Of a stretch of DNA of 64,000 bases, positions 1,906 to 51,698 are shown in pieces; the first letter of the stretch is position 1; each line of letters starts with the position of its first letter. Source of the DNA: Mangrovimonas spongiae (lineage in GTDB: Bacteria; Bacteroidota; Bacteroidia; Flavobacteriales; Flavobacteriaceae); contig NZ_RWBG01000005.1 in NCBI RefSeq assembly GCF_003944795.1, forward strand, positions 186,001-250,000, written 5' to 3'. The notes below the pieces were generated by a model, which saw only the letters and a program-made list of their open reading frames with translations, ran no database searches and was not told where the DNA came from. Position numbers and translations under genes: made by a program.

Positions 1906-1938
1906 AAGGCATTAGACAAGCTCTAATGCCTTTTTTTT
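1906..1938 (+). terminator. intrinsic terminator after the small membrane protein gene
   Basis: An 11-bp perfect stem AAGGCATTAGA/TCTAATGCCTT (1906-1916 and 1922-1932) with a 5-base loop is followed by eight T residues (1931-1938). The right arm overlaps the last codons and stop codon (1923-1925) of the convergent hisIE gene. There is no A-run on the left, so it acts for the plus strand only. Confidence 0.9.
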
Positions 1939-2519
1939 AGTATATTAACAACATCGTTGATACTAAATCCTTTGGCTTGTAATAGTATTAAGTAATGAAA
2001 TAATAGATCGGCTGTTTCGTTTAAAAACAGATTATCATTACTATCTTTAGCTTCAATAATAACTTCAACAGCTTCTTCCCCTACTTTTTGAGCTATTTTA
2101 TTTATTCCTTTTGAAAATAGTGAAGCCACATAAGATTGATTTGAATCGCTGTTTTCTATTCTGTTTGTTATAATTGTTTCTAATTTAGAGATAAACCCAT
2201 AAGATGATATGTTACTTTCTCCCCAACATGTATCACTACCTTTATGGCAAACTGTGCCTGTTGGTTTTACCTGAATTAATAATGTGTCATTATCGCAATC
2301 ACTTTTAATATTTACAAGCTTTAAATAGTGTCCACTTTCTTCACCTTTAGTCCATAAACGCTGTTTCGATCTACTATAGAAGGTAACCACTTTAGTTTTT
2401 ATGGTTTTTTTATAAGCTTCCTCATTCATATAGCCCAGCATTAGAACTGTTTTGGTTTCAGAGTCTTGAATAATTACTGGAACAAGGCCATCTATATTTT
2501 TTTTAAAATTTATTTTCAT
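1923..2519 (-). CDS. hisIE: bifunctional phosphoribosyl-AMP cyclohydrolase / phosphoribosyl-ATP pyrophosphatase
   Basis: A 198-residue fusion catalysing steps 2 and 3 of histidine synthesis. HisI occupies about residues 1-105, with MLGYMNEEAY, the WTKGEESGH segment and the Zn/Mg ligands CDNDTLL and CHKGSDTCW. HisE follows (about 112-198) with the MazG-like helices VGEEAVEVIIEAKD and ETADLLFHYLILL. It is the last gene of the operon; its ATG overlaps the hisF stop by one base at 2519, implying translational coupling. Length matches other fused HisIE proteins. Confidence 0.97.
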   Translation of the reverse strand: MKINFKKNIDGLVPVIIQDSETKTVLMLGYMNEEAYKKTIKTKVVTFYSRSKQRLWTKGEESGHYLKLVNIKSDCDNDTLLIQVKPTGTVCHKGSDTCWGESNISSYGFISKLETIITNRIENSDSNQSYVASLFSKGINKIAQKVGEEAVEVIIEAKDSNDNLFLNETADLLFHYLILLQAKGFSINDVVNILKKRH

Positions 2520-3274
2520 TAGAGTCGTACTTCTATTTGTTGTTGTTTTAATGTTTTCTTTAAATCGACAATGTTTATTTCACCAAAATGAAACACGCTA
2601 GCAGCTAAAGCCGCATCGGCTTTTCCTTGTTTAAACACATCTATGAAATGTTGTTGTTTTCCTGCCCCACCTGATGCAATAACTGGAATATTTAATTCTG
2701 AAGACAATTTAGCAAGGACGTCATTTGCAAAACCATTTTTAGTGCCATCATGATTCATTGAAGTAAATAATATTTCTCCTGCTCCTCGAGACTCAACCTC
2801 TTTGGCCCAATCAAATACATCTATTTTTGTTGGGATACTGCCACCAGCTAAATGTACGTTCCAAGAGCTATTAATCTTCTTAGCATCAATGGCAACAACT
2901 ACACACTGACTTCCATACTTATTAGCTAAATTATTAATCAACTCTGGACGCTTAACTGCAGATGAGTTAATTGATATTTTGTCTGCACCATTATTTAAAA
3001 GAATATATACATCTTCTACAGAGGAAATTCCCCCACCAACAGTAAAGGGAATATTTACTTGTTCTGCAACTTTTAAAACCATTTCTCTAGTGGTTTTTCT
3101 GGCTTCTTTAGTTGCCGAAATATCTAAAAAAACAAGTTCGTCTGCACCTTTTTTAGCGTATTGTTTTGCTAATTCAACGGGATCACCAGCATCTCTAAGA
3201 TTCACAAAATTAATACCTTTTACAGTCCGTCCATCTTTAATATCTAAACAAGGAATTATACGTTTTGTCAGCAT
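2519..3274 (-). CDS. hisF: imidazole glycerol phosphate synthase, cyclase subunit HisF
   Basis: A 251-residue (beta/alpha)8 barrel that works with HisH to make imidazole glycerol phosphate and AICAR. It starts [20 protein letters not shown], with the catalytic Asp of CLDIKDG and a second catalytic Asp in VVVAIDAKK; phosphate-binding loops VGGGI and ASGGAG are present. It lies one base from hisA and overlaps hisIE by one base. Length and residues are normal for the family. Confidence 0.98.
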
Positions 3275-3275
3275 C

Positions 3276-3998
3276 TTAAATAAATTTTTCTAATTCTTTT
3301 AATGTGATTTTATTTTCATACAAAGCCTTTCCTATAATAACACCTTCACAACCTATGTTTTTTAGTATATGTAATTCATTAATATTAGACACCCCGCCTG
3401 ACGCTATTAGTTTTATAGGATTATCATTACATTTTGAAATAATGTTTCTATATAAGTCTAACGATGGTCCTTCCAGCATACCGTCTTTAGAAATATCTGT
3501 ACAAATCACATATTGAATTCCTTTTTTCTGATAATTTTTTATAAATGGAATAAGAGCTAAATTACTTTGTTCTTGCCAACCATTAGTGGCAATTTTTTCA
3601 TCTTTACAATCGGCACCAAGAATAATTTTATTTTGACCATATTTACGAATCCAGTTATCAAAAACGTTAGGACTTTTAACTGCTATACTCCCACCTGTAA
3701 CTTGTTTTGCACCAGAACTAAAAGCTATATACAAATCCTCATCAGATTTTAAGCCGCCACCAAAATCTATACTTAAATTTGTTTCAGTTGCAATTTGTTC
3801 TAATATGTTATAATTAATAATTCGGTTGGATTTAGCACCATCTAAATCGACTAAATGAATGTGTTTAACACCAACACTTTCAAAGTGTTTAGCAACTTCT
3901 AAAGGGTTTTCATTATATATTTTTTTAGTATTGTAATTGCCTTTTGTTAATCTTACACATTTACCATTTATAATATCTATTGCAGGTATGATACGCAT
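3276..3998 (-). CDS. hisA: ProFAR isomerase HisA
   Basis: A 240-residue barrel enzyme, 1-(5-phosphoribosyl)-5-[(5-phosphoribosylamino)methylideneamino]imidazole-4-carboxamide isomerase. The start [20 protein letters not shown] gives the catalytic Asp of AIDI and the KCVRL motif; the second catalytic Asp is in [22 protein letters not shown] and ASGGVSN are the phosphate loops. The gene sits between hisH (10-base gap) and hisF (1-base gap). Confidence 0.98.
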
Positions 3999-4008
3999 AT
4001 CTTTCTTT

Positions 4009-4590
4009 TTAAATTTCTATAAAGTTTTTTAAAATCTGTTCGCCTAAATCACCACTTTTTTCTGGATGAAATTGAACTCCATAAAAATTTTTTTTTTGCA
4101 AAGCCGACGTATATTCTAGTCCATAATCTGTCTTTGAAATGGTTTCATCACAGATTTCAGCATAATAGCTATGTACCAAATACATGTATGATTTTTCAGG
4201 AATTCCAACAAATACGTCAGATTTCAAATCTTTAATAACATTCCATCCTACTTGCGGAACTTTTACACGAGTATCAAATTTTTTCACTTTTACATCAAAA
4301 ATACCTAGTCCATGAGTACTTCCTTCCTCTGTGTATTTACACAGCAACTGCATTCCTAAGCAGATGCCTAAAACAGGTTGTTGTAGGTTTGGTATTAATC
4401 TGTCCAAACTAGAGTGTTGTAACATGTTCATTGCGCTACTAGCCTCTCCTACACCAGGAAAAATAACTTTATCGGCTTTTAGAATGGTGGATTTGCTACT
4501 TGTTAATTCTGTGTTTATGCCTAAACGCTGAAATGCAAATTGTATACTTTTAATATTTCCTGCTCCGTAATCTATAATAACAACTTTCAT
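4009..4590 (-). CDS. hisH: imidazole glycerol phosphate synthase, glutaminase subunit HisH
   Basis: A 193-residue class I glutamine amidotransferase that supplies ammonia to HisF. The triad is visible: Cys77 in [10 protein letters not shown], His175 and Glu177 in QFHPEKSG. The oxyanion strand PGVGEA is present near residue 45. The start ATG overlaps the hisB stop by one base at 4590. Length is typical. Confidence 0.98.
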
Positions 4591-5726
4591 TATAAAACCC
4601 CTTTTGTTGATGGTAACATCATATTTTCGGCATCTCGTTTTATAGCCATTTTAATAGCTTTAGCAAAAGCTTTAAAAATGGCTTCAATTTTATGGTGCTC
4701 GTTAATTCCTTCTGCTTTAATATTCAAATTACATTTAGCACCATCAGTAAACGATTTAAAAAAATGATAAAACATTTCTGTAGGCATTTTTCCTATCATT
4801 TCACGTTTAAAATTGGCATTCCATACTAACCAATTTCTGCCACCAAAATCGATAGCTACTTGAGCTAAACAGTCATCCATTGGTAAACAAAACCCATAAC
4901 GTTCAATACCTAATTTATACCCCAAAGCCTTATTAAAAGCGTTTCCTAAAGCAATCGCTGTATCCTCAATAGTGTGATGTTCATCAACCTCTAAATCGCC
5001 ATTAACTTTAATGTCTAAATCTACTTGACTATGACGTGAAATTTGATCTAACATATGATTAAAAAAAGCTATTCCTGTATTTATGTTACTCTTTGCTGTT
5101 CCATCAAGATTTAATTGAATTGCTACTTGTGTTTCGTTAGTATTTCTTACTATAGTAGCTGTTCTATCGGTTAGTTTTAAAAACTCGTAAATTTCTTGCC
5201 AGTTTTTGGTTTCTAATGCTATATAAGGATTTAACTCCTCTCGTTTTACCGTAATTTCCTCACTTCCTAAATATGATTGGTTATTAATAAAAATACCTTT
5301 TGCGTTTAAGTTTTTGGCTAGTTGAATATCGGTTAAGCGATCTCCTATTACAAATGAGTTTTTTAAATCATACTTCTCGGAAAAATACGTGGTTAATAAG
5401 CCTGTATTTGGCTTTCTTGTTGGGGCATTATCTTTTGCAAAAGTTCGGTCAATAATCTCCTCTTTAAAAACGATTCCTTCGGCTTTAAAGGTTTTCATTA
5501 TAAAATTATGCACTGGCCAAAATGTATTTTCTGGAAAAGCTACTGTGCCTAACCCATCTTGATTAGTTATCATAACCAATTCATAATCTAACTCGTTTGT
5601 TATTTTGCTTAAATACTGAAATACTTTTGGATAAAATTCTAGCTTTTCAAAAGCATCTATTTGTTCATCTTTAGGCTCTTTTATTAATGTGCCATCTCTA
5701 TCTATAAATAATACTTTCTGCGCCAT
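4590..5726 (-). CDS. hisB: bifunctional histidinol-phosphatase / imidazoleglycerol-phosphate dehydratase
   Basis: A 378-residue fusion. The N-terminal HAD phosphatase domain (about 1-170) has the nucleophile motif FIDRDGTLI (Asp9, Asp11) and the later [13 protein letters not shown]. The C-terminal dehydratase domain (about 187-378) has the two Mn-binding repeats [12 protein letters not shown] and [15 protein letters not shown]. The bifunctional form occurs in enterobacteria and many Bacteroidota. It overlaps hisH and hisC by one base each. Confidence 0.98.
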
Positions 5727-6772
5727 TATAGTGTTTTTAAGGTGTTGATTAATACGGTATTTTCACGGCTAGTTCCTATAGTGAAACGCAAGCAGTTCTT
5801 ACAGCCAAATTGAGATGTTCGGTTTCGTACAACAATTCCTTTATTAATTAGTTGCTGGTATCTTTTTGTAGCATTGTCCACCTTAACTAAAATAAAGTTT
5901 GTTTCTGTTGGAAAAACTTGCTTTACAAATGAGATCTCTTTTAAAGCTGTTTTTAAAAGTTCTCTTTGTTTTATTATAATTTGAATTCTGCTTTTTATCT
6001 TCTCTGTTTTTTGTAGTTGCTGCAAAGCATATTGTTGAGTTAGCGTATTAACATTATATGGCAATTTTATCTTATTTAAGATATTAACAATTGTTTTTGA
6101 TGCATAGCATACTCCCAGCCTAATTCCAGCCATACCAAAAGCTTTTGATAATGTTTGCGTAATTACTAGATTAGGGAAATGATCTAATCTATTTAACCAG
6201 CTTTCCTGAGTTGAAAAATCGATATATGCTTCATCAAGAACAACAATCCCATTAAAACTGTTAAGTAATAATTCAATGTCCTTTGATTTAAAATGATTTC
6301 CAGATGGATTATTAGGCGAACAGAGAAATAATATTTTTGTATTGTTTGTTGTAGCGTTTAAAATATTTTCTACTTGTAATTGAAACTTATCATCAAGTGG
6401 TACTAAAGTACTTGACACATTATTTATGTTTGCCAACACTTGGTACATACCGTATGTTGGTGGTAAAATTATGATTTGGTCTTTCTTAGGTTCGCAAAAG
6501 GAACGAATTAATAAATCCAACACTTCGTCACTACCATTTCCTAAAAAGATATTATCAATATCAATATTTTTTAATTCTGAAAGGCATTCTTTTACTTTTA
6601 TTTGTTGTGGATCTGGGTAACGGTTTAATCCATTATTATAAGGGTTTTCGTTGGCATCTAAAAAAATCATATTGTTATTAAAACTCTTATATTCCTCTCT
6701 TGCAGAAGAATATGGTGTGACTAATTTTACCGATGGTCTTATTAAGTTTTCTATATTAAATGAGCGATTCAT
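5726..6772 (-). CDS. hisC: histidinol-phosphate aminotransferase
   Basis: A 348-residue fold type I PLP enzyme converting imidazole acetol phosphate and glutamate to histidinol phosphate. The Schiff-base lysine is Lys210 in [30 protein letters not shown] and LDEAYIDF are the substrate and PLP contacts, and RNRTSQFG and LRFTIGT close the active site. It starts two bases after hisD ends and shares one base with hisB. Confidence 0.97.
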
Positions 6773-6774
6773 TG

Positions 6775-8073
6775 TTATTTTTTGCTTGATTTTATTATAT
6801 CATTAAGTCTAATGGAAACAGCTTTTTTATGAGCTTGTAACCCTTCGGCATCTGCCATAATTTCTATGGTTTCACCTATATTTTTCAATCCTTTTTTAGT
6901 GATTTTTTGAAAGGTGATACTTTTTGTAAAACTATTTAAGTTTACTCCAGAGTACATTTTGCTAAACCCATTTGTTGGTAAAGTGTGGTTAGTGCCAGAA
7001 CCGTAATCACCAGCACTTTCAGGGGTGAAATTTCCTATAAAAATAGATCCTGCATTATTAATTTTATTAATAAATAACGCTTCATTTTTAGCACAAATTA
7101 TAAAGTGTTCTGGAGCATATTCATTAATCATTTTTAAAGCTATATCATCACTTTCTACTAAAATTAATTTTGAATTTTGTATCGCTTGTTCTGCAATAGA
7201 TTTCCTAGGCAACTCTTTAATTTGAATAGAAATTTCAGTTTTTACGCTTTCAATAAGAGATTCTGAAGTCGATATTAAAATTACCTGACTATCTACACCA
7301 TGTTCGGCTTGGCTAAGCAGGTCTGATGCCACATAAGAAGCCTTTGCAGAATCGTCGGCATATACCAACAACTCGCTTGGCCCAGCAGGCATGTCTATAG
7401 CTACACCATGTTTAATTGCCAATTGTTTCGCTATAGTAACAAATTGATTTCCCGGACCAAATATTTTATAAACCTGAGGTATTGTTTTGGTGCCAAATGT
7501 CATTCCAGCTATAGCTTGAATACCTCCTACTTTTATAATTTTTTTTACCCCACAAAGTTGAGCAGTAAATAAAATTTCTTTTGCTATATCTCCTTCTTTA
7601 TTTGGTGGCGTACAAATTACAATATCTTTGCAACCTGCTATTTTTGCTGGAATTGCTAACATTAATACCGTAGAAAATAATGGCGCTGTTCCTCCTGGAA
7701 TGTATAATCCTATTTTTTCTATAGGACGTTTTTCTTGCCAGCATCGAACTCCAGGTGAAGTTTCAATCTCTATTTTGGATGTTTTTTGAGCAGCATGAAA
7801 AGCTTCAATATTATCTTTAGCCATATATATAGCTGCTTTTAAGTTTTCTGATATTTTTTTACATGCATCATCAACTTCTTTCTTTGAAACTTTATAGTTC
7901 TTAAGCTCAACACCATCAAATATTGTTGTGTATTTTATTATTGCTTTGTCTCCTTGACGTTCTACATCATTAAAAATTTCATTAACAGTTTGTTCAATGT
8001 TATTAATAGTTTGGGTTGGTCGTTTTAAAATCTCGGACCAATCAGATGATTTAGGATTTATAATTGTTTTCAT
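6775..8073 (-). CDS. hisD: histidinol dehydrogenase
   Basis: The NAD-dependent, Zn-binding enzyme that oxidises histidinol to histidine in two steps. I place the start at 8073, giving 432 residues beginning MKTIINPKSSDW, because this ATG shares one base with the hisG stop (TAATG), the same arrangement as four other junctions in this operon. A longer in-frame start at 8100 would overlap hisG by 28 bases and add nine residues without family support. Motifs: FGPGNQFVTIAKQ, PAGPSELLVYAD, LSQAEHGVDSQV (Zn-ligand region), and GDYGSGTNHTLPT with the catalytic His. Confidence 0.97.
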   Translation of the reverse strand: MKTIINPKSSDWSEILKRPTQTINNIEQTVNEIFNDVERQGDKAIIKYTTIFDGVELKNYKVSKKEVDDACKKISENLKAAIYMAKDNIEAFHAAQKTSKIEIETSPGVRCWQEKRPIEKIGLYIPGGTAPLFSTVLMLAIPAKIAGCKDIVICTPPNKEGDIAKEILFTAQLCGVKKIIKVGGIQAIAGMTFGTKTIPQVYKIFGPGNQFVTIAKQLAIKHGVAIDMPAGPSELLVYADDSAKASYVASDLLSQAEHGVDSQVILISTSESLIESVKTEISIQIKELPRKSIAEQAIQNSKLILVESDDIALKMINEYAPEHFIICAKNEALFINKINNAGSIFIGNFTPESAGDYGSGTNHTLPTNGFSKMYSGVNLNSFTKSITFQKITKKGLKNIGETIEIMADAEGLQAHKKAVSIRLNDIIKSSKK

Positions 8074-8930
8074 TACAGTATCATATTTTCTATTGGACAA
8101 ACTAATATTCCTTCTGCGCCGTTTGCTTTAAGCTCATCTATAACTTCCCAAAATGTGTTTTTATTAATTACGGAGTGTAAAGAGCTCCATCCGCTTCTAG
8201 CTAATGGTATAATAGTAGGACTATTCATACCTGGAAGTATATTTATAATGTCTTTGATTTTTTCATTTGGGATATTTAATAGTACATATTTGTTTTGACG
8301 ACTTTTTAAAACCGATTGTATTCTAAACTGTAGTTTGCTTAGTATACTTTTTTGTATATTATGTATTTTAGGAGATACTGCTAAAACAGCTTCAGATTTT
8401 AATAAAACATCTACCTCTTTAAGATTATTTTTAAATAATGTATTTCCACTTGATACAATATCTACAATAGCATGAGCCAAACCTATATTTGGTGCAATTT
8501 CTACCGAACCATTAATAATGTGCAAATTGGCTGAAACATTATTTTTATTTAAAAATTTGGTTACAGTATTAGGGTAAGATGTTGCAATACGCTTACCTTG
8601 TAAGTCTTTGATACTTGAATATTGCTTGGTTTTGGGTATTGCGATAGATACTTTACATTTTGAAAAACCTAACTTTTCTATTACGGTAATATTATCTGCT
8701 TTTTCAAAAAGCACATTTTCACCAATAATTGCAGCATCAACAATACCGTCCTTTAGGTACTGAGGGATGTCGCCGTTACGTAAATAAAAAATTTCTAAAG
8801 GAAAATTGGCGGCCGAGGTTTTTAACTGGTCTTTACCATTATCTACAAAAACACCAATATCTTTTAGTATTTTCATAGAATCGTCATGTAACCTACCTGA
8901 TTTTTGTACAGCAATTTTTAATTTACTCAT
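8073..8930 (-). CDS. hisG: ATP phosphoribosyltransferase, long form with regulatory domain
   Basis: The first, committed enzyme of histidine synthesis. At 285 residues it is the long HisG form: a periplasmic-binding-like catalytic domain (about 1-210) with KIAVQKSGRLHDDSM and the PRPP loop VEIAPNIGLAHAIVDIV, then the C-terminal ACT-like domain (about 212-285) that mediates histidine feedback inhibition in this form, so no HisZ is needed. Its first codons (8917-8929) can form a 13-bp hairpin with upstream element 8950-8962 that would hide the start codon. It is the first structural gene after the His leader and attenuator. Confidence 0.97.
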   Translation of the reverse strand: MSKLKIAVQKSGRLHDDSMKILKDIGVFVDNGKDQLKTSAANFPLEIFYLRNGDIPQYLKDGIVDAAIIGENVLFEKADNITVIEKLGFSKCKVSIAIPKTKQYSSIKDLQGKRIATSYPNTVTKFLNKNNVSANLHIINGSVEIAPNIGLAHAIVDIVSSGNTLFKNNLKEVDVLLKSEAVLAVSPKIHNIQKSILSKLQFRIQSVLKSRQNKYVLLNIPNEKIKDIINILPGMNSPTIIPLARSGWSSLHSVINKNTFWEVIDELKANGAEGILVCPIENMIL

Positions 8931-8962
8931 TCTTAATGTTTATTGTGTTTGAGTAAATCAAA
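8917..8962 (-). promoter_or_regulatory. candidate start-codon-sequestering hairpin of hisG
   Basis: On the minus strand TTTGATTTACTCA (8962 down to 8950) can pair with TGAGTAAATTAAA (8929 down to 8917): 13 pairs, including one G-U. The second arm contains the UG of the hisG AUG and codons 2 to 4. The 20-base loop holds the presumed ribosome-binding region. Pairing is seen in the sequence; a role in translation is inference. Confidence 0.5.
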
Positions 8963-9014
8963 TGAAGGTTTATGGTATTATAGAAAACAAAAAACCCGTT
9001 TGATTTACTCAAAC
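8947..9014. repeat. 16-bp perfect inverted repeat: terminator core versus hisG upstream region
   Basis: GTTTGAGTAAATCAAA at 8947-8962 is the exact reverse complement of TTTGATTTACTCAAAC at 8999-9014, with 36 bases between. The right copy is the core of the his leader terminator. Each copy is itself a small hairpin, and the two loops (GTAAA and TTTAC) are complementary, so a kissing-loop or full duplex is possible. Confidence 0.85.
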
Positions 9015-9020: not shown

Positions 9021-9069
9021 CAATATATTTTACTTCAATTTAGTCAATACATTTTCAGCTCGCTTGAGT
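9007..9069 (-). promoter_or_regulatory. antiterminator pairing of the his leader
   Basis: On the minus strand ACTCAAGCG (9069-9061), inside the last codons of the leader peptide, can pair with CGTTTGAGT (9015-9007), the 5' arm and loop of the terminator: nine pairs with one G-U. A ribosome stalled at the His codons would leave this segment free and favour readthrough; a ribosome at the UGA stop (9057-9055) would cover it and let the terminator form. Geometry is seen; the mechanism follows the classical attenuation model. Confidence 0.72.
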
Positions 9070-9111
9070 GCAAGTATGAAAATGATGATGGTGTAATTGA
9101 ATAAAAGTCAT
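9055..9111 (-). CDS. hisL: histidine operon leader peptide
   Basis: An 18-residue open frame, MTFIQLHHHHFHTCTQAS, with five His residues (7-10 and 12), too short for usual ORF calling. It lies 124 bases upstream of hisG on the same strand and just before an antiterminator/terminator pair, exactly as in attenuators of amino-acid operons (compare E. coli hisL, which has seven His in a row). The sequence is unrelated to hisL apart from the His run. The ATG follows the A-rich stretch AAAGAAAACAA. The function is inferred from composition and position; the symbol is used by analogy. Confidence 0.88.
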   Translation of the reverse strand: MTFIQLHHHHFHTCTQAS

Positions 9112-9168: not shown

Positions 9169-9984
9169 TTATTGATTTCCTAAAATAATAGGCATACCAG
9201 ATTCTCCAGAACCTATTATAACCACTTTGCTATTAGGAGATTCCGATAGTTTGTTGGTAGCTTCAATACCTTTATCTTGTAAAATTTTATCGGTTAGCGA
9301 TGCACTTAATATTTTATTAGCATCGGCTTTTCCTTTTGCTTCAATACGTTGGCGTTCAGCTTCTTTTCGGGCTTTTTCTAACCTAAACTCATACTCTAAA
9401 GACTCTTGTTCTTGACGTAATTTACGTTCAATCGCATCTTTAATTGTTGGTGGTAAAGTAACATCTCTAACCAAAATCTCATCAATAACAATATGCTGAT
9501 CGTCTACAATTTTTTTAGTTTCTTCAAAAATTTCGGCTTGAATAGCATCACGTTTGCTAGAATATAATTGCTCTGGTGTGTAGCGTCCAACAACACTTCT
9601 TGCTGCAGAACGAATGGTTGGCAAAATAATTCTGTTTAAATAGTCCTCACCAATTTCTTGGTGTAACTTTCCTAAGTTATTAATTTCTGGTTTATACCAC
9701 GTTGAAGCATCTAGTTGAATGTCTAATCCGTTTGAAGAAAGCACTTTCATTTTTTCAAAAATCTCTTGACGGCGTACTTCATAAACATACACTTTATTCC
9801 AAGGGGCTACAATATGAAACCCTTCTCCTAAGGCTGGTTCATCTGTAACAACGCCACCTCCAAATCTTTTGTATAAAACGCCTGCTTCACCAGAATCTAT
9901 GGTGACAGCCGATTTTGAAATAAGAATAACAATAAAAATAAGTAATACCACGAATGGTAATGCAATTTTGGGTAATCTTTCCAT
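9169..9984 (-). CDS. prohibitin-like SPFH-domain membrane protein
   Basis: A 271-residue prohibitin/stomatin superfamily protein. One N-terminal transmembrane helix (about 8-24) is followed by the SPFH domain (about 25-200; IDSGEAGVLYKRFGG, GFHIVAPWNKVYVYEVRRQE) and a charged coiled coil with repeated Glu/Arg/Lys/Ala (about 205-245). Family members form ring oligomers in membranes and often regulate FtsH-type proteases. It starts 12 bases after the vWA gene ends and is probably co-transcribed with it and fabG. No terminator separates it from the his leader promoter region. Confidence 0.92.
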   Translation of the reverse strand: MERLPKIALPFVVLLIFIVILISKSAVTIDSGEAGVLYKRFGGGVVTDEPALGEGFHIVAPWNKVYVYEVRRQEIFEKMKVLSSNGLDIQLDASTWYKPEINNLGKLHQEIGEDYLNRIILPTIRSAARSVVGRYTPEQLYSSKRDAIQAEIFEETKKIVDDQHIVIDEILVRDVTLPPTIKDAIERKLRQEQESLEYEFRLEKARKEAERQRIEAKGKADANKILSASLTDKILQDKGIEATNKLSESPNSKVVIIGSGESGMPIILGNQ

Positions 9985-51643: not shown

Positions 51644-51647
51644 GAAT

Positions 51648-51676
51648 AAAAAACCACGCCTTAAGCGTGGTTTTTT
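51648..51676. terminator. bidirectional terminator between S10 and M61 peptidase genes
   Basis: AAAAAACCACGC (51648-51659) pairs perfectly with GCGTGGTTTTTT (51665-51676) around a CTTAA loop, giving six U on either strand. The two peptidase genes converge on it. Confidence 0.94.
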
Positions 51677-51698
51677 ATTTAATTTATTGAGAAAAAGA

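Follow-up and report, generated by a model that had tools for sequence, protein, structure and literature searches.

The textbook amino-acid attenuator has three alternative pairings and extends no further than the terminator. The leader of the histidine operon of Mangrovimonas spongiae raises the question of what a further strand, lying behind the terminator and complementary both to it and to the start of hisG, might be doing there. Within the window (the whole 64,000-nucleotide stretch of DNA analysed here), the his operon is complete and runs on the minus strand in the order hisG-D-C-B-H-A-F-IE (8930-1923), as assigned by NCBIfam families. The first gene of hisGDCBHAFIE, hisG, encodes ATP phosphoribosyltransferase (8073-8930; TIGR00070 and TIGR03455), and is followed by hisD, hisC, the bifunctional hisB, hisH, hisA, hisF, and hisIE (1923-8100), each with an NCBIfam match above its cut-off. 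Upstream of the leader, on the same strand, lies a gene for a 271-residue protein (9169-9984) that drew no NCBIfam match at 1e-10 and that presumably resembles a prohibitin/HflC-type membrane protein.

The enterobacterial his attenuator (hisL) combines a leader peptide containing His codons with protector, antiterminator, and terminator pairings ahead of hisG, and the window leader shares this architecture on the minus strand. A short ORF of 18 residues with a run of His codons, MTFIQLHHHHFHTCTQAS (9055-9111), resembles the His-rich ORFs found throughout the leaders of relatives. Between this ORF and hisG lies an intrinsic terminator (9021-8989), composed of a 5' arm (9021-9009), a loop (9008-9004), a 3' arm (9003-8991), and a T run (8994-8989). 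An alternative, antiterminator pairing is provided by the leader strand CTCAAGCG (9061-9068), which is complementary to 9015-9008 of the terminator 5' arm and sits in the loop of a protector hairpin, CTTGC/GCGAG (9059-9074), in the minimum free energy fold; visual inspection of relatives revealed the hairpin variants TTTGC/GCGAA and CTTGT/ACGAG. In 58 of 74 representatives sharing less than 85% HisG identity, the leader holds a strand that can pair with the 5' arm, including CCGTCTGAG with CTAAGACGG, and the antiterminator pairing shows compensatory variants among relatives. Unlike hisL, the window leader lacks an Rfam match at gathering score, and downstream of its terminator it has an additional conserved antisense strand. 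Across the whole window, the Rfam scan gave nothing at gathering score; at the leader it listed 27 matches below threshold (up to E = 10), His_leader not among them, and these matches (trpB, PyrR, and microRNAs) are weak and were read as chance.

The additional strand, designated element E (8947-8962, minus strand), is located behind the terminator, 16 nt ahead of the hisG ATG. A sequence-only reading of this locus had described it as a perfect 16-bp inverted copy of the terminator core; indeed, core 9014-8999 GTTTGAGTAAATCAAA and E 8962-8947 TTTGATTTACTCAAAC are exact reverse complements at 16 of 16 positions. The same reading had proposed an alternative pairing over 13 positions with the hisG start, and this was also borne out: hisG 8929-8917 TGAGTAAATTAAA and E 8962-8950 form 12 Watson-Crick pairs and one G-U pair, covering the U and G of AUG, codons 2 to 4, and two bases of codon 5. 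Neither pairing is attributable to chance, because the 58-nt spacer outperformed each of its 200 dinucleotide shuffles, both in pairing with the terminator core (-22.9 kcal/mol against a mean of -6.6) and in pairing with the hisG start (-13.6 against -5.8). Nineteen terminator-like hairpins of the window were scored, and the his terminator has by far the strongest downstream antisense match (-22.9, the next being -15.6). The second-best match belongs to a back-to-back terminator, AAACCACGCCTTAAGCGTGGTTT (51644-51680). When RNA from 9130 to 8880 is folded freely, the prediction contains the terminator together with a 13-bp E:hisG hairpin (z = -5.9). The loops GTAAA and TTTAC, for which kissing had been suggested, are complementary in the window; kissing as a conserved feature was ruled out, with only 23 of 244 elements having a self-stem of at least 5 bp.

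For comparison, his leaders were gathered through a HisG search. This gave 371 loci, of which 368 had a readable hisG start (L078, L177, and L320 were dropped). The terminator was found by script in 363 of these 368; the remaining five (L030, L041, L086, L125, and L199) were dropped, though L030 and L086 visibly carry E. After this step, 337 distinct leaders remained, 324 of which could be anchored on a GTTTGA-type terminator arm; the other 13 were not anchorable, the chosen hairpin lacking such an arm in some distant relatives. Shuffle tests required 20 nt or more after the terminator, which 328 leaders offered; nine others were too short. In 281 of these 328 Flavobacteriales leaders, pairing of the E region with the terminator core beats dinucleotide shuffles (p <= 0.01), and across relatives E precedes the ATG by a median of 17 nt.

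For covariation, the leaders scoring 7 or higher for E (259 in all) were assessed, using sister pairs on non-overlapping paths of the HisG tree to avoid counting ancestry. When partners were swapped within pairs, the own partner was better in 29 cases and the swapped partner in two, with 18 ties (p = 2e-7), and this terminator-E covariation includes the variable loop. Indeed, when E was located by the 5' arm alone in 40 representatives whose HisG identity is below 80%, 4.12 of 6 loop pairs were Watson-Crick, compared with 3.16 upon permutation (maximum 3.62). Compensatory pair types include UA and CG at t3 (50 and 12 of 74) and UA, CG, and AU at t8, in the loop; for example, other families within the order have GTCTGAG/CTCAGAC in place of GTTTGAG/CTCAAAC, a UA-to-CG change in the arm. 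The changes across families include G-U-compatible ones. On the strength of its sequence, its conservation, and its covariation with the terminator, E is a real, conserved, and covarying pairing partner of the terminator core across the order. The sequence-only reading was correct in naming the core as the target but had placed the match mainly in the loop and 3' arm; pair types, compensatory changes, and the sister-pair swap instead indicate that E targets the 5' arm and loop order-wide (13 nt, 9002-9014 in the window), and the match in the window extends beyond this target into the 3' arm. Nor is E likely to be captured by a part of the core that the antiterminator leaves single-stranded, as had been imagined, for its target is the segment that the antiterminator also uses. 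E and the leader strand, both complementary to the terminator 5' arm, would thus compete for one segment.

The absence of E from near relatives that still have the leader peptide had been named as an outcome that would speak against the switch. Instead, E is present in L002 and L003, the two congeners for which hisG was matched; in L003 (hisG ATGAAGAAA), its pairing with the start is gone. In several genomes, the surroundings of E have been remodelled: AAGTTTAATTAAAAAGATACCCGCTTTCTCGGGCA-type hairpins stand directly ahead of the hisG ATG in L006, L039, L047, L070, L112, L121, and L131, and ATTCCTGCNNNGGCAGGAATCTT-like hairpins lie between the terminator and E in L036, L085, and L131. Both resemble dispersed repeats that have inserted around a retained E. 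In five further leaders (L058, L063, L127, L135, and L175), the His leader peptide and terminator are retained and a CCCGTGAAAACGGGAAT-type hairpin apparently takes the place of E; these are apparently natural losses of E.

E was also sought at other amino-acid operons. The pheA and trpE genes of relatives have leader peptides (F-rich or WWW) and terminators of their own, and 60 such loci from 40 relatives were collected. The stretch following the hairpin exceeded 15 nt in 25 of these and was 15 nt or shorter in 24; in the remainder, the start codon or the terminator hairpin was not found by the script. No E-like strand was detected at p <= 0.01 in any of the 25 testable leaders (lowest p, 0.05), about six trpE leaders being weak tests in which the script had chosen an upstream hairpin. 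On this sample, E as a general feature of amino-acid leaders was rejected. In the window's own genome, pheA (L396) and trpE (L412) have F-rich MKTNSTFTYYNWFYFFFSKGNEA and WWW MNTILNNTWWWNFRNATFVK leader peptides, respectively, each with its terminator 8 nt ahead of the gene, and are ordinary attenuators without E.

The second pairing, between E and the hisG start, has a narrower distribution. The spacer matches the hisG start better than shuffles (p <= 0.01) in 127 of 328 leaders, including 77 of 107 in the window's class ATGAGTAA, 40 of 59 in class ATGAGTAC, and 4 of 11 in class ATGAGTAT. It is nearly absent from two large clades that keep E, namely leaders with GAC/GAT loops (1/62) and those with ATGACAAA starts (0/22), which rules it out as a universally conserved pairing. 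Permutation of hisG starts among 40 distant representatives gave a maximum match of 6.53 in 2000 permutations, compared with 6.67 for the own start. Single cases of matching letters include L265 (hisG ATGAACACC with E GGGTTGTTCA), L284, L351, and L366 (hisG ATGAGTATT with E TATACTCAT), and L157 (hisG ATGAACAAA with E ATTTAGTTCA). In independent sister pairs, covariation between E and hisG is not significant (21:16, 15:9, and 8:5). The check by covariation in homologous leaders that the sequence-only reading had called for thus came out in favour of the terminator pairing and not of the start pairing, and its claim of an alternative start pairing holds for the window's class, not for the two large clades or for L003. 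The complementarity as such is real and, in the window's class, likely selected, as far as sequence comparison can tell. In GAC/GAT-loop leaders, including L009, E runs on into ACTCAT, which is complementary to hisG ATGAGT; GAC loops occur in Algibacter and Flavivirga. Co-evolution of the terminator loop with the hisG start was considered as well: TAAA loops accompany TAAA at hisG codons 2-3 in 77 leaders, hisG TACN accompanies loop TACA in 47, and crossed TAAA/TACA combinations occur once each way, a table that is confounded with phylogeny and of which most may reflect a few ancestral events. Independent pairs do not support such co-evolution (likeness 7:7), and it was set aside.

Folding the whole leader in both states, another check that had been suggested, predicts nearly isoenergetic structures with opposite openness of the start, which is closed only when the terminator is folded. 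According to this equilibrium model, the terminator-opened structure lies a median of 3.8 kcal/mol above the ground state in the 259 leaders with E (interquartile range 1.3-6.2); the folded terminator would therefore usually win at equilibrium, and the captured state would need kinetic trapping. The modelled openness of the first three hisG codons rises from 0.25 when the terminator is folded to 0.49 when it is opened; the corresponding values for shuffled spacers are 0.46 and 0.44, and a foreign terminator gives 0.35 in the opened state. Among these leaders, which are not independent of one another, the start is predicted to be closed below 0.3 in 180 of 259 (37 when shuffled) and reopened by more than 0.2 in 149 of 259 (4 when shuffled); the opposite direction is predicted in 4 of 259. 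The GAC/GAT group shows a small computed switch (0.30 to 0.39), and leaders with ATGACAAAA starts are closed no more than their shuffles (0.58 against 0.57, n = 9). Hence, a structure over the initiation region, of the kind a translational gate would use, is predicted above chance in the window's class, albeit with non-significant covariation with hisG.

Taken together, the parts of this leader suggest a ribosome-mediated his attenuator with E as an added third strand that serves as a translational gate in readthrough mRNA, a reading to which we assign a probability of roughly one half and which we prefer because it is the simplest account using all parts. E would be transcribed only after the terminator. 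With plentiful histidine, the terminator hairpin would form; in a transcript that nevertheless leaked through, the terminator would stay folded, and E would be free to pair with the hisG start (in the window's class), leaving the mRNA untranslated. Upon histidine shortage, a ribosome stalled on the His codons would allow the leader strand to keep the terminator 5' arm open, and the emerging E could invade the exposed loop and 5' arm. E would then already be occupied when the hisG start appears, and hisG would be translated. We infer this order of events, its kinetics, and any effect on hisG translation from the pairings and the model. Shine-Dalgarno initiation is largely lacking in Bacteroidota.

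E may instead work through the terminator only, its complementarity to hisG being inherited or secondary. It would pair with the terminator 5' arm and loop in readthrough mRNA to prevent the hairpin from re-forming or, in variants of this explanation, to determine how stable the RNA is or how ribosomes gain access ahead of hisG. We regard this family of explanations as possible, if on balance doubtful. It accommodates the retention of the E-terminator pairing in the clades without the start pairing (57/62 GAC/GAT-loop and 15/22 ATGACAAA leaders) and the non-significant E-hisG covariation. It is also consistent with L009, whose predicted ground state has E paired with the terminator beside a start hairpin; as both form together there, the gate logic may differ in the GAC/GAT clade. 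The classes in which the terminator loop has changed point in two directions. In the ATGAGTAC class, E followed the changed loop in 6 of 9 leaders and stayed in 1, which counts against the gate, whereas in the ATGAGTAA class E kept its hisG-matching letters in 23 of 31 leaders with a drifted loop and followed the terminator in 4, which counts against a role through the terminator only (Fisher p 0.001 for the contrast, among leaders that are not phylogenetically independent). Likewise, start complementarity is far above chance in the two largest classes (117/166 at p <= 0.01), and base e11 is T in 11 of 259 leaders, which breaks the terminator pairing and in several extends the pairing to the A of AUG. 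Moreover, a terminator re-forming behind the polymerase would carry no obvious cost.

Two other explanations fare worse than a gate in cis. Abundant terminated leader RNA could pair in trans with E of full-length his mRNA and block translation in the manner of an antisense RNA; E is complementary to this terminated RNA, loop included, its median distance to the start codon is 17 nt, and the attenuator RNA rnTrpL of Sinorhizobium meliloti reportedly acts in trans. We consider this unlikely, however, as the same terminator is present in cis on every his mRNA, presumably at a much higher effective concentration, the terminator must open first, and E has no conserved kissing loop. Least probable of all, the inverted repeat would function at the DNA level as a protein site, or be a neutral inverted duplication, without any role for RNA. 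As the core is nearly palindromic, one protein could bind both copies, yet it is the non-palindromic loop that changes as a complement in both copies (the 29:2 sister pairs above), conservation spans families of the order with G-U-compatible changes, and the repeat was not found at the 25 pheA and trpE terminators.

Several described systems resemble parts of the proposed gate. In Bacillus subtilis tlrB (yxjB), according to the available portion of the report, stalling on a leader peptide governs both a terminator and a start-hiding hairpin in readthrough RNA; stalling there is drug-induced, an overlapping antiterminator was not identified, and the hairpin that sequesters the start joins upstream leader sequence with a Shine-Dalgarno sequence (PMC6851288). 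Both systems would thus share a leader peptide, a terminator, and a hairpin over the start region of readthrough RNA, but the his strand lies after the terminator and is complementary to the terminator itself, and its signal would be histidine. In the B. subtilis trp leader, TRAP and sequestration of the trpE Shine-Dalgarno sequence provide a second, translational control of readthrough transcripts (PMC12288461); such a second layer would be common to both, exerted there by the TRAP protein and here, as proposed, by RNA only. A strand antisense to the terminator is not described in the accessible parts of either source. The 5' UTR of Corynebacterium glutamicum hisDCB is reported to adopt alternative folds, one of which hides the Shine-Dalgarno sequence, and a T-box-like mechanism was proposed (PMC3896937); both are his leaders with alternative folds, C. 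glutamicum apparently lacking a His leader peptide.

Within Flavobacteriaceae, a 2021 transcriptome of Flavobacterium psychrophilum lists a structured hisG 5' element without an Rfam match, conserved in other genera of the family, and infers leader-peptide attenuation for amino-acid operons (PMC9723704). This element is very probably the same leader, and the leader as such would therefore already be known; E, its terminator pairing, and its start-codon pairing do not appear in the text available from that source. In the portions available, a study of his genes in Bacteroidota mentions attenuation for enterobacteria only (PMC8305728), and work on Bacteroides thetaiotaomicron mentions leader-peptide-like sORFs and not histidine or hisG (PMC7366714). 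In the open-access main texts covered, in part as excerpts, only the general mention in PMC9723704 was found and no description of E; as far as this literature extends, what appears new relative to known attenuators is the conserved antisense strand behind the terminator.

A conserved strand in this position, with compensatory changes, suggests that an attenuator may still work after the polymerase has passed, and a gate of the kind preferred here would link transcription attenuation with translation and need no protein to do so. Going one step further, and more tentatively, the his mRNA of Flavobacteriales may "remember" its making, with E captured only after antitermination and otherwise shutting the hisG start. 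If so, each readthrough transcript would be an RNA-only record of antitermination as opposed to leak, and a ribosome-mediated amino-acid attenuator would bear an order-wide proofreading layer. E offers simple mutants with which to ask whether the fold of an mRNA preserves its own transcription history.
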